Assembly: GCA_913056145.1 (NCBI GenBank)
Contig: CAJXMI010000007.1
Location: forward strand, 1-43,782
Direction: 5' to 3'
Source of the DNA: an uncultured Spiribacter sp.
GTDB lineage: Bacteria; Pseudomonadota; Gammaproteobacteria; Nitrococcales; Nitrococcaceae
DNA length: 43,782 nt
Shown in pieces: positions 5,228 to 23,090 of the stretch. Below the pieces are notes generated by a model. It did no database searches and had not been told where the DNA came from. It saw only the letters and a program-made list of their open reading frames with translations. Position 1 is the first letter of the stretch. Every line of letters begins with the position of its first letter. The position numbers and the translations under genes were made by a program.

Positions 5228-6084
5228 CGAATATGCTCGAGAATTCCGTCGAGCTCATCGAGGCTGTTGTAGCGAATCACGAGCCGCCCTTTGCCGCGCT
5301 GGCCGTGCTCTATGCGCACATTGGCACCCAGACGGTCCGCCAGATCGCTCTGCAGGCTGCGAATGTTCGGGTCGGGTTCACTCGAACCCCGCCGCTCGGA
5401 TGCGCCGCTCTGCAGCTTCCGCACCAGTGCCTCGGTCTGGCGCACGGTAAGGCCGCGCGCAACCACCTGGCGCGCGGCATCGCCCTGCGCGGCGTCATCC
5501 AGCGAGAGGAGGGCACGGGCATGTCCCATCTCGAGCTCACCGGCCGCTATATGGCGCTTGACCGCCTCGGACACATCCAGCAGACGCAACAGGTTGGAGA
5601 CACCCACCCGCGACCGGCCCACCGCATCGGCCACCGCCTGATGGGTCATTCCAAACTCCTCGGTGAGTCGCAGCAGGGCACTGGCCTCCTCCAGCGGGTT
5701 CAAATCCTCGCGCTGGATATTCTCGATCAGCGCAACCGCGACGGCCATTTCATCGGGGATATCACGGACAATGGCCGGAATGACCGCCAGCTCGGCAAGC
5801 TGGGCGGCACGCCAGCGGCGCTCACCGGCAATGATTTCATAATGCCCACCGCCCGGCAGTGGCCGCACCACGATGGGCTGCACCACGCCCTGCGCCCGGA
5901 TGGAATGCGCAAGCTCCTGCAACGCCGCGGGATCAAACTCGCGCCGCGGCTGGTAGCGCCCGCTCTCAAGCTGATCGACCGGCAGGTCGCGCAGATTGGC
6001 CTCGCCCGCGCCAGCGGCCTCACCGGTCGCCTCGCCAAGCAGGGCATCAAGGCCACGGCCCAGTCCACGTCGTCGATTGCTCAT
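5224..6084 (-). CDS. parB: Chromosome-partitioning protein ParB
   Basis: The 286-residue centromere-binding CTPase begins MSNRRRGLGRGLDALLGE, the usual ParB start. It contains the CTP-binding motif GERRWRA, the ENIQREDLNPLEEA segment, and a helix-turn-helix around HQAVADAVGRSRVGVSNLLR. It loads at parS, spreads and recruits ParA and SMC. Its start overlaps the parA stop in ATGA, so translation is probably coupled. Two matching parS sites are present about 10 kb away inside recF. Confidence 0.97.
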   Translation of the reverse strand: MSNRRRGLGRGLDALLGEATGEAAGAGEANLRDLPVDQLESGRYQPRREFDPAALQELAHSIRAQGVVQPIVVRPLPGGGHYEIIAGERRWRAAQLAELAVIPAIVRDIPDEMAVAVALIENIQREDLNPLEEASALLRLTEEFGMTHQAVADAVGRSRVGVSNLLRLLDVSEAVKRHIAAGELEMGHARALLSLDDAAQGDAARQVVARGLTVRQTEALVRKLQSGASERRGSSEPDPNIRSLQSDLADRLGANVRIEHGQRGKGRLVIRYNSLDELDGILEHIR

Positions 6085-10834: not shown

Positions 10835-12534
10835 TCACTCCTTTGCGCCGGCCTCAATCCGCCGCGTGATCACCCATTGCTGGAGGATCGACAGACTGTT
10901 GTTGGTGACCCAGTAGAGCACCAGACCGGCCGGGAAGAAGACAAAGAACACCGTGAAGACCAGCGGCAGGCCCATCATGATCTTCTGCTGAATGGGATCC
11001 ATGGGCGCCGGGTTGAGCTTTTGCTGGATGAACATGGTGGCACCCATGAGCAGCGGCAGCACATAAAAGGGATCGCGTACCGACAGGTCATTGATCCACA
11101 GCACCCAGGGCGCCTGGCGCAGCTCCACGCTCTCCAGCAGGACCCAGTAGAGCGCAATGAATACGGGGATCTGGATGAGGATGGGCAAACAGCCGCCCAG
11201 CGGATTGACCTTCTCCTTTTTGTAGAGGGTCATCAGTTCCTGGTTCATGCGCTGCTTGTCGTCGCTGTAGCGCTCGCGCAGCTTCTGCATTTCGGGCTGG
11301 AGCTTGCGCATTCGCGCCATGGAGCGGTAGCTGGTCTCGGAGAGCTTGTAGAAGACCAGCTTGATGCCCAGCGTGAGCAGGATGATGGACCAGCCCCAGT
11401 TCCCGACAATGTCGTGAATCCAGTCGAGGGCAATGAACAGCGGTTTCGAGATGATCGTGAGCCAGCCGTAATCAACCGCGAGCTGCAGGCCTTCGGCCAC
11501 ATCCGCCAGCCGGTCCTGCTCCTTGGGCCCTACAAACAGGCGATTCTCGAAGCGGCCGGTCTCGCCCGCTGCCACCACCTGCCAGGGCGCGCTCTGGCCG
11601 AGGATGTACTCACCGCGACTCACCCGCGAGTAGTAGCGCAGCGTGGTATCGCGTGGCGGCACCCAGGCCGCCAGGAAGTAATGCTGAATCATCGCAAGCC
11701 AGCCATCGGCGATGTTGCGCGACAGATCCTCGTCTTCCATGTCGCCAAAGCTGATCTTCTGGAATTTCTCGGCCGGGCTGTAGATAACCCCGCCCGTGTA
11801 ACTGGCCGCGCCCAGAAAGCCCGGTCCTTCGGTCTCGGTAGTACGTCGCAGCTGGCTGTACTGATACCCCCGCCAGGGTTCACCACTGGCGTTTTCCACA
11901 TCGTGGACCACTCGCACCACATAGCTGTCGCGCTCGAAGATATAGCGCCGCGTCACGGTGACGCCCGTCGCCGTCGACCAGCGCAGGGGCACCTCAAGCT
12001 GATCCTGGCCCCCCTCAAGGCGGTAGGTATCGGCGCCAGCCTGCCAGGCGGCAGAGTGCCCGGGCGCTTCGGCGTTGTCACCCACCAGCCCGATCTGGGC
12101 CACAAAGAGCGGATCGCGGTTGCCGAGGAGGCGGAACGGCGTGTCATTATCGATCGCCATCGTGTGCTCCAGCAGGTCGGCCTGACGGATATTGCCACCG
12201 GCAAGCGGGATTTCGACATCGAGTACGTCGGTGGTGACGCGCACCGTGTCGGTCATGACCCGTTCACCTTCAGCCCCGCCGGCGGATACCGCTGCCGACC
12301 GCTCGTCTGCCTGCTCGGCCGGCCCGCCCGGGGTGGCGGGGGTGCCTCGCCCGCCGGTGCCGCCATGGTATCGGGCTGGGGCGCCGCCGACCCGGCTGCC
12401 TGCTCGGCCGTCTGGGCGGTGGTGTCCGCGGTGGTCGCCCGACCCGGGCCGTAGTCCTGCTGCCAGGTGGTCCAGATCAGGAGCATGACCAGCGCCAGGG
12501 CAACCAGCAGGAATAGACGTTGATTCTCCATCAT
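10835..12534 (-). CDS. yidC: Membrane protein insertase YidC, split by an apparent one-base frameshift
   Basis: YidC inserts inner-membrane proteins, including F0 subunits. The N-terminal membrane anchor ([20 protein letters not shown]) and its Thr/Ala-rich linker are read in one frame from 12534 and stop at 12253. The rest (periplasmic P1 domain from about [13 protein letters not shown], then the five-helix insertase core with [20 protein letters not shown]) is in the next frame, ending at 10835. Adding one base in a G-tract at 12330-12342 (plus strand) joins them into a 566-residue protein of normal length. A sequencing or assembly error is most likely because the gene is essential. In the sequence as given, the N-terminal frame's TGA overlaps an ATG of the downstream frame in ATGA, so two coupled products are formally possible. 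The extended open frame beginning at 12556 is not the natural N-terminus. Confidence 0.85.
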
Positions 12535-12767
12535 GAGTGGCGACTCGCGGGTTCACGCTCCGGGACGGGGTCGAGACCGCCCGGATGCAGGGGATTGCAG
12601 CGCAGAATGCGCCGAACGGCGTAATACCCGCCCCGCAGTGCCCCGTGCCGTTCGACGGCCTCGATGGCGTAACACGAGCAGGTGGGGTGGAAGCGGCAGC
12701 ATGGCCCGAAGAGCGGGCTGATGCAGTAGCGGTAGGCGCGCAGCAGAGCGATCAGGAGGGTTCGCAT
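12531..12767 (-). CDS. yidD: Membrane protein insertion efficiency factor YidD
   Basis: The 78-residue small protein of the YidD family has an amphipathic N-terminal helix and the signature cysteine/proline core [14 protein letters not shown], then [10 protein letters not shown]. It is a membrane-associated helper of YidC-dependent insertion. Its 5' end overlaps rnpA by 16 bases and its stop overlaps the yidC start in ATGA, the conserved rpmH-rnpA-yidD-yidC arrangement. Confidence 0.95.
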
Positions 12768-15028: not shown

Positions 15029-16129
15029 ATGCAGTTCGAAATTGACCGGGATTCGCTCTTACGTCCGCTCCAGGCCGTCATCGGCGTCGTGGAACGTCGC
15101 CAGACCCTGCCTGTCCTTGCCAACGTGCTGCTGGAGATCGGTGACGGTCGGCTTGCAGTCACTGCCACCGACCTCGAAGTGGAGCTGCGGGCGCAGGTGG
15201 ATCTGGAAGCCGGCGAACCCGGCCAGGTCACGGTACCTGCGCGCAAGCTGATGGACATCGTCCGCAATCTGCCTGATGACAGTCGGGTCACCGTAACCCG
15301 TGAGTCCGAGCGGGTTGTCGTGCGGGCCGGTCGCAGCCGCTTTGCGCTCACGACGCTACCGGCAGAAGACTTCCCGACTGTGGATCAGGTCGAAGCCAGC
15401 CATCGTGTCTCGGTACCTCAGGCGCAACTGCGCTGGTTGATCGAGAAAACCCACTTCGCCATGGCACTCCAGGACGTGCGCTATTACCTGAACGGGCTGC
15501 TCGTGGAACTTGCCCCGCAGCATCTGCGTGCGGTAGCAACCGACGGCCACCGTTTGGCCATGGCCGAGTTGGCGCCCAATCTTGATCTTGAGGAGCCAAC
15601 GCAGGTGATCGTGCCTCGCAAGGGCATCCAGGAGATGCTGCGGCTGCTCGATTCCTCCGAGGATCCCGTTGAACTGGTGCTGGGTACTGGCCATGTGCAG
15701 GTCACCCTGCCCGAGATCCGGTTTACGTCTAAACTGATTGATGGCCGTTTTCCGGACTATCAGCGTGTGATTCCCGCTGAAGACGGGCCATCGGCGCAAG
15801 TGGATCGCGAGACGCTGCGCAAGGCGCTGGTGCGGGCGTCGATCCTGTCCAATGAAAAATACCGCGGCGTCCGGTTTGGCTTTGAGCCTGAACAGCTGCG
15901 GATTCAGTCCAATAACCCCGAGCAGGAAGAGGCCGAGGAGGAAATCCCGGCCAGTTTTGATGGTGACGCGATCGAGATCGGTTTCAATGCCAGTTACATG
16001 CTGGATGCACTCGCTGCCATCGATGAGCCCAGCGTGACGGTGTATGTGCGTGATGGCAGCAGCAGCGCCCTGGTACTGGGCGAAAAGGGCCGCGACGCCC
16101 GCTACGTCGTGATGCCGATGCGGCTTTAG
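15029..16129 (+). CDS. dnaN: DNA polymerase III beta subunit (sliding clamp)
   Basis: The 366-residue clamp dimerises around DNA and tethers polymerases. The N-terminus MQFEIDRDSLLRPLQAVIGVVERR, the internal YYLNGLLVE and the ending YVVMPMRL are family hallmarks. Length is standard. It follows oriC and precedes recF by two bases, so the two are co-transcribed. Confidence 0.98.
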   Translation: MQFEIDRDSLLRPLQAVIGVVERRQTLPVLANVLLEIGDGRLAVTATDLEVELRAQVDLEAGEPGQVTVPARKLMDIVRNLPDDSRVTVTRESERVVVRAGRSRFALTTLPAEDFPTVDQVEASHRVSVPQAQLRWLIEKTHFAMALQDVRYYLNGLLVELAPQHLRAVATDGHRLAMAELAPNLDLEEPTQVIVPRKGIQEMLRLLDSSEDPVELVLGTGHVQVTLPEIRFTSKLIDGRFPDYQRVIPAEDGPSAQVDRETLRKALVRASILSNEKYRGVRFGFEPEQLRIQSNNPEQEEAEEEIPASFDGDAIEIGFNASYMLDALAAIDEPSVTVYVRDGSSSALVLGEKGRDARYVVMPMRL

Positions 16130-20999: not shown

Positions 21000-23090
21000 C
21001 TACGCCGACTCCGGCAGCGCGGATACATCGGCAATGGCAAGGAAGAGGCCCTGGAGGCGGCCGAGCAGTGCGAGCCGGTTGCTTTGCAGCGCAGGGTCAT
21101 CGCACATGACCATTACGTCGTCGAAGAAACGGTCCACCGGTTCCCTGAGCTCGGCCAGGAGCGCCAGCGCGGCGCTGTACTCGCCCGCCTCGATACGCTG
21201 CTGCACGGGCCCGGCACGCTCGTCGATCGCGGCATGCAGGGCCTGCTCGGCGGGATCGGTCAGTTGGCGCGGATCGACAACCGTCTCGGACCCGGCCTCG
21301 GCACGGCGCAGGATATTGCGGATCCGCTTGTTGGCAGCGGCCAGACTGCCGGCCGCCGGGAGGCGGGCAAAGTCCTGGCAGGCACGCAGTCGGCGATCAA
21401 AGTCGAGCGGCTCGAAGGACTCGGGCGACAATACCGAGCGCACGGCCTCGAAGAGCTCGGCGCCAAAGCCCGCCTCCTGATAGATGGCCCGCAGCCGCTC
21501 CAGACAGAAAGTGACGAGCGGCTCCGCCTGCGCCTCGCCGTCGACACCATCCGGTTGCCGGGCGCCCGCCGCTGCAAAGAGGGCGTGCAGGTTGATGGCA
21601 TGCTCACCTTCGATGAGGGTGCGCAAGAGGCCAACGGCGGCACGGCGCAGCGCAAACGGATCCTTGGCGCCGCTCGGGGCCTTGCCGATCGCGAAAATGC
21701 CCACCAGCGTGTCGGCCCGGTCCATTACGGCAAGCAACTGCCCGAGTGGCGTGGTCGCGACCGCATCGCCGGCATGCCGCGGCTGGTAGATTTCATCGAG
21801 GGCCACGGCCAGGGCCTCGGGCTCGCCGTCTTCAGCGGCGTAGTAGCGTCCCATGACGCCCTGCAGGTCCGGGAACTCCCCCACCATCTCGGTCAGCAAG
21901 TCGGCCTTGGAGAGCCTCGCGGCGCGCTCGGCAAGCCCGGGCTCGGTCGCAAATCGTTCGGCGTAGTCGGCGGCCAGGGCGGCCACCCGCTCCACTTTGT
22001 CCTGCAGGCTGCCCAGGGCCTTTTGAAATACCACGGCGCGCAGGTCGCTTTCACGCCCGGCCAGTGGGCGGGCGCGGTCCTGATCCCAAAAGAAGGCGGC
22101 ATCGGCGAGCCGCGGCCGGATCACGCGCTCGTTGCCGGCGATGACCCGGGCGGGCTCCCGGCTCTCGATGTTGGCGACCGTGATGAAGCGGGGCATCAGC
22201 GCGCCGCTGGCATCACGCACCGGAAAATAGCGCTGGTGCTCTTGCATGCTCGACACGAGGGCTTCGGCGGGTACGCGCAGAAAGTCATCGTCAAATGCGC
22301 CCGAGAGCACCACGGGCCATTCCACAAGGGCATTGACCTCGTCGATCAGGGCCTCGTCCATGACGGCATGGCCGCCCAGGCGCTCGCCCTCGGCGCGAAC
22401 GCCCTCGCTGATGCGATCACGCCGCTCGGTGATATCCACCAGCACGTGGGCAGCGCGCAAAGCCGATTCGTACCCCCCGGCGTCGGGGATGCGGACCGGG
22501 GCGGGATGGTGAAAGCGATGCCCGCGGCTCTCGCACCCACTGTCCACGCCAAAAAAACGGGCGGGAACCACCGCGTCGCCCAGCATGAGCACGACCCAGT
22601 GGACCGGGCGGACAAACTCGGCGGTCTGATCACCCCAGCGCATGCGCTTTGGAATGGGTAGCCGGGCGAGGGCCTGGTCGATGATGCCCGGTAGCAGATC
22701 GGCACTGGCCTGGCCCGGCTCGACACCGCGATGCACCAGCCAGGCCCCCGCCTCGTTCTGCAGGCGCTCCAGCTCGGCCACGCCTACCCCGCAGGAGCGG
22801 GCGAATCCCTCGGCGGCCCGGGTGGGGTTGCCGTCATCGTCAAACGCCACGTCAACGCCTGGCCCGCGGCGCTCGAATGCCTGATCGGGCTGGCGCAGCG
22901 CCAGTTCCGGGATGCGCAGGGCGAGCCGGCGCGGCGCCCCGAGAACCCGGGCCGACCCGTGTGGAATCCCGGCGCGATCCAGTCCATCGCAGACCCCCGC
23001 GGCCAACGCCTCGCTGAGCGTAACCAGAGCGCCGGGCGGCAGTTCCTCGGTACCGAGTTCGAAGAGCAGCGTGGTGCGCGCCTCGTTCAT
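21000..23090 (-). CDS. glyS: Glycine-tRNA ligase beta subunit
   Basis: The 696-residue beta subunit of the alpha2-beta2 bacterial glycyl-tRNA synthetase recognises tRNA. The N-terminus [19 protein letters not shown] is the family signature; [20 protein letters not shown] is another strongly conserved segment, and a C-terminal anticodon-binding-like domain is complete. The start overlaps the glyQ stop in ATGA, so the two subunits are made together. Confidence 0.98.

Follow-up and report, generated by a model that had tools for sequence, protein, structure and literature searches.

The usual neighbours of yidC, the gene for the membrane protein insertase, are rnpA, yidD, mnmE and dnaA. In E. 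coli YidC, the first transmembrane segment (TM1) is described as nonconserved and the P1 domain as not essential (PMC4124156). YidC function is described as essential, and a large deletion in P1 as tolerated (PMC7618853). Here we examined a yidC locus in which the anchor and the remainder of the protein are printed in different reading frames.

The window, i.e. the whole stretch of 43,782 nucleotides that was analysed, is contig C7 of the draft genome G000 (1.87 Mb in 144 contigs; completeness 87.7%, contamination 3.6%). In the genome_contigs collection, from which records of the window's own genome were possibly left out in this search, the closest named relatives were Spiribacter salilacus and metagenome-assembled genomes labelled Spiribacter or Ectothiorhodospiraceae. 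Because of these names the source bacterium is probably salt-loving. The minus strand carries mnmE, yidC, yidD and rnpA, and dnaA is on the plus strand; the gene at 15029, after dnaA, is presumably dnaN. The genes are tightly packed in what looks like an operon: the frames of rnpA and yidD share 16 bases (12752-12767) and the yidD stop overlaps the yidC start. The features are as follows.

10835-12347, minus strand: main yidC frame with the remaining linker, the PF14849 periplasmic domain and the PF02096 insertase domain (from ORFs, domain matches, codon usage and a Viterbi path).
12253-12256, minus strand: ATGA in which the stop of the N-terminal frame overlaps an ATG of the main frame; probably coincidental.
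12256-12534, minus strand: N-terminal yidC frame with the start, the TM1 anchor, the first part of the linker and about 29 out-of-frame residues (matches to TIGR03593 positions 1-69 and NF002352 positions 1-65).
12330-12348, minus strand: probable site of the frame break, with plus-strand G runs of 4 (12330-12333) and 5 (12338-12342) bases (from profile matches, codon usage, the Viterbi path and GC content).
12531-12767, minus strand: yidD, its stop overlapping the yidC start in ATGA (from the ORF list and profile matches).

The N-terminal ORF extends from 12534 to 12253 (93 amino acids; stop codon 12255-12253). The main ORF lies one frame off, from 12556 to 10835, and has a GTG start and 573 amino acids. 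The two overlap by 282 bases, or by 304 when counted from the GTG. The DNA here has about 65% GC and many overlapping ORFs are listed, so the overlap alone says little. The profile matches are more telling. Positions 1-65 of NF002352 matched residues 2-65 of the N-terminal frame, and positions 66-557 matched residues 82-572 of the main frame. One family profile is thus covered by two frames, which is more than a chance overlap of ORFs. The main frame scored 679.7 bits against NF002352 (cut-off 447), 286.5 bits against PF14849 (cut-off 24) and 225.4 bits against PF02096 (cut-off 35). The N-terminal frame matched TIGR03593 with an E-value of 4.1e-10 and 39.8 bits; the cut-off of 58.25 applies to the whole protein, and a fragment may fall short of it. 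The locus encodes a YidC insertase of the gammaproteobacterial type: PF14849 and PF02096 are present and the TM1 anchor is encoded upstream. It is not a single-frame yidC, as anchor and periplasmic domain are printed in two frames. The shift is -1, i.e. one base too few modulo three; from the sequence, 1, 4 or 7 missing bases would look alike.

Where does the frame break? By homology to NF002352, the frame changes somewhere from about 12340 to 12313. Codon usage, modelled on 18 genes from the window, put the best switch at 12345, with a broad optimum in which the 12 best places (12336-12399) lie within 3.4 natural-log units. A codon table of the same kind also underlay the Viterbi path, which switched at 12347/12348. 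The composition at this site is extreme. The stretch 12313-12348 has 89% GC and the 60 bases 12301-12360 have 85%, a level reached by only 0.16% of the 60-mers in the window. Low coverage and indel errors are a general hazard in GC-extreme DNA. G or C runs of at least five bases occur 60 times in the window, and no other compared gene there was broken. Our data bear out the preliminary description, which had stated that yidC is out of frame by one base, the anchor and the rest lying in different minus-strand frames; this follows from the ORFs and NF002352. Its proposal that one added base yields 566 codons agrees with the arithmetic, and its location of the break near 12330-12342 fits, as the homology, codon-usage and Viterbi values surround both G runs.

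The frame used after the switch was examined in the linker segment 12342-12256. Its net charge is -3 in the main frame and +6 in the N-terminal frame. In 12 relatives of the same genus the last 28 linker residues carry net charges of -1 to -7 and contain no lysine; by eye, the nearest relative has DPASPGGREDD at the corresponding place. Past the switch only the main frame reads as the usual acidic linker. From 12342 to 12310, and again past 12255, the codon model favoured the main frame. In the piece from 12309 to 12256 it gave no separation (-3.93 versus -3.94 per codon), and third-position GC was higher in the N-terminal frame. Linker charge, profile match and the overall position of the switch indicate that the main frame is coding about 90 bases ahead of the ATGA.

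The same locus was then compared in relatives. A search of 59 genomes detected yidC in 57 of them, one being the window's own genome, and the DNA was compared for 29 relatives (L003-L031). The genome_contigs search found 175 relatives, of which 80 were kept. Together these are 109 relative loci with 98 distinct N-terminal sequences, some genomes being represented twice. Anchor and periplasmic domain lie in one frame in 107 of the 109 loci; the other two are cut by contig ends. The collection contains 14 genomes of the genus including the window's own, none given as the same species, and the nearest relative has 84% protein identity. All 13 other genomes have a single-frame yidC with anchor and periplasmic domain joined. 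Twelve of them belong to the set of 109 loci, and over the main part their proteins are 74-84% identical to the one here; in the thirteenth, G007, the frame runs open through the junction, although its match is a contig-edge piece only (55% identity over this short piece). A comparison with close relatives had been proposed in the preliminary description; it gave the same single-frame answer 13 times out of 13. One PF02096 match is present in G000, and each genome of the genus has one yidC match. A second yidC copy in G000 is conceivable because the draft is incomplete. In viral_contigs, a scan for this locus that allowed variable spacing gave no match, and the plasmid collection yielded 22 records with 60-80% identity.

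Is the assembly error-ridden elsewhere? A sample of about 444 kb (443,782 bases) of G000 was taken, made up of the window and of 20-kb pieces of 20 other contigs. Of 329 genes of the relative G005 used as queries, 73 found a counterpart there, 17 of them inside the window and 56 beyond it. Three of these 73 comparisons looked split, and after reading three frames only yidC was left. The other two were due to over-called starts in G005; by Pfam their G005 proteins match a class I tRNA synthetase of the E/Q type, with its counterpart in L133, and a TolA-binding protein, with its counterpart in L137. In the reverse survey two of 78 were flagged, both on the basis of short hits with low scores (25.8 and 24.3 bits). 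A further comparison, confined to the first 25.7 kb of the window, yielded two multi-frame queries, both of them ORFs on the plus strand that lie antisense to conserved genes of the minus strand; it missed the N-terminal piece of yidC, which was found at the looser threshold of the G005 survey.

A Viterbi scan of the 443,782 bases detected 57 same-strand frame switches. Twenty-five were dropped because one piece had 45 bases or less, and 32 were reviewed. Three of the 32, namely yidC and two other pairs, have their upstream stop over 45 bases beyond the switch. The translations of the latter look like ordinary neighbours, and they were rejected as in-gene breaks. We take one pair to be ruvC-ruvA and the other to be a gene without a recognised name followed by a short-chain dehydrogenase. 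On contig 21 (L137:9741-10915) the ruvC-like gene precedes the ruvA-like gene and has a basic, low-complexity C-terminal tail, in which the codon signal changes 68 bases ahead of the stop; this was read as an ordinary gene pair. Outside the window, the orthologue and codon surveys of 400 kb found no in-gene frameshift, where breaks near gene ends could escape both. With yidC alone among 73 orthologue comparisons and 32 reviewed switches, the idea of a noisy, indel-rich assembly was discarded. The clean sample indicates a single local defect and not a platform with widespread homopolymer errors.

Because the genes of the relatives are whole and the break falls into an extremely G-rich spot, a small error is the most likely cause, and we consider the break in the printed yidC very probably to be a local indel error of sequencing or assembly. 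The locus would then carry the ordinary yidC of a Spiribacter-like draft genome. An indel in the extremely GC-rich, low-complexity linker at about 12330-12348 would have left the printed gene one base short, modulo three. The yidC of the living organism is probably whole. What speaks against the error is that the sampled assembly is otherwise clean, that a platform prone to homopolymer errors is without support, and that runs of five or more G or C are common in the window although no other compared gene there is broken. The same absence of other indel errors in the sampled genes favours the main rival, a real frameshift mutation of recent date, carried by some or all members of the sampled population, that leaves a damaged or low-activity YidC. 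G runs are mutable. Partial function is conceivable given that TM1 of E. coli is nonconserved and its P1 not essential, as described in PMC4124156. Together with the tolerated P1 deletion (PMC7618853) this makes a damaged but tolerated yidC not impossible. Against such a mutation stand the single yidC match in the genome combined with the essential function of YidC described in PMC7618853, and the lack of the break in every examined relative. A mutation would have to be recent, since the codon signal is normal both before and after the break. All in all, a real mutation is improbable, though it is the rival to be taken most seriously; a split or recoded YidC is unlikely.

In a truly split YidC, a short anchor peptide would be made on its own, and translational coupling at the ATGA (12256-12253) would restart the main chain. 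Two points favour it: among the 32 reviewed junctions, 27, yidC included, have an ATG or GTG at -4 to the upstream stop of an overlapping gene, and the restart site is just ahead of the periplasmic domain. Within the window, start codons at -4 are seen at 12531-12534, 6081-6084, 23087-23090 and at other sites. However, in yidC the codon signal shifts 95 bases before the upstream stop, compared with 2-32 bases at the 29 unflagged junctions; at the other two flagged junctions it changes 62 and 68 bases before the stop. The signal is therefore off the stop/restart overlap. Whereas the 12 linkers of the genus are acidic, the out-of-frame tail is basic. Shine-Dalgarno pairing is ordinary, with 22% of the 628 minus-strand ATGs in the window equal or better. 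None of the examined relatives has the split form, i.e. it is not conserved. Two relatives with intact proteins have the methionine of this ATG at the corresponding position (AVMTD in L008, AIMAD in L003), which makes the possible restart codon plain protein sequence. A main chain without TM1 would lack a helix that places P1 in the periplasm and is unlikely to work. We agree with the earlier judgement that a split, coupled protein is the less likely alternative, on the grounds of linker charge, profile match, position of the codon switch and the methionine in two relatives, and regard it as very improbable. Its extreme form, a two-chain YidC in which a free anchor peptide supplies the anchor helix in trans to an anchorless insertase restarted at the ATGA, is more improbable still. 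Programmed -1 ribosomal frameshifting might join both frames, and the -1 direction and the GC-rich surroundings are formally compatible with it. Yet a scan of the N-terminal frame for slippery heptamers of the type X XXY YYZ found none at the switch. The sole heptamer in this frame, CCCGGGT at 12448, is about 100 bases before the codon switch, and the examined relatives need no shift. There is scarcely any chance that recoding accounts for the printed gene.

A local indel error has a practical consequence. An automatic annotation will probably start YidC at the wrong place and lose the anchor, or mark the gene as a pseudogene, though the genes of the relatives are whole. Only if the printed sequence were true would it say something new on how the YidC anchor works.

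The locus can be set beside two known cases. Isolated indel errors in draft and metagenome assemblies, as they are generally known, resemble it in that there is a single break, in an extremely GC-rich, low-complexity part of a gene and in one draft only; a difference is that elsewhere the sampled assembly looks clean. With the YidC of gammaproteobacteria (NF002352, or TIGR03593 plus TIGR03592; PF14849 plus PF02096) the printed gene shares the same domains in the same order and the usual place among rnpA, yidD, mnmE and dnaA, but it is spread over two frames where the genes of the examined relatives use one.
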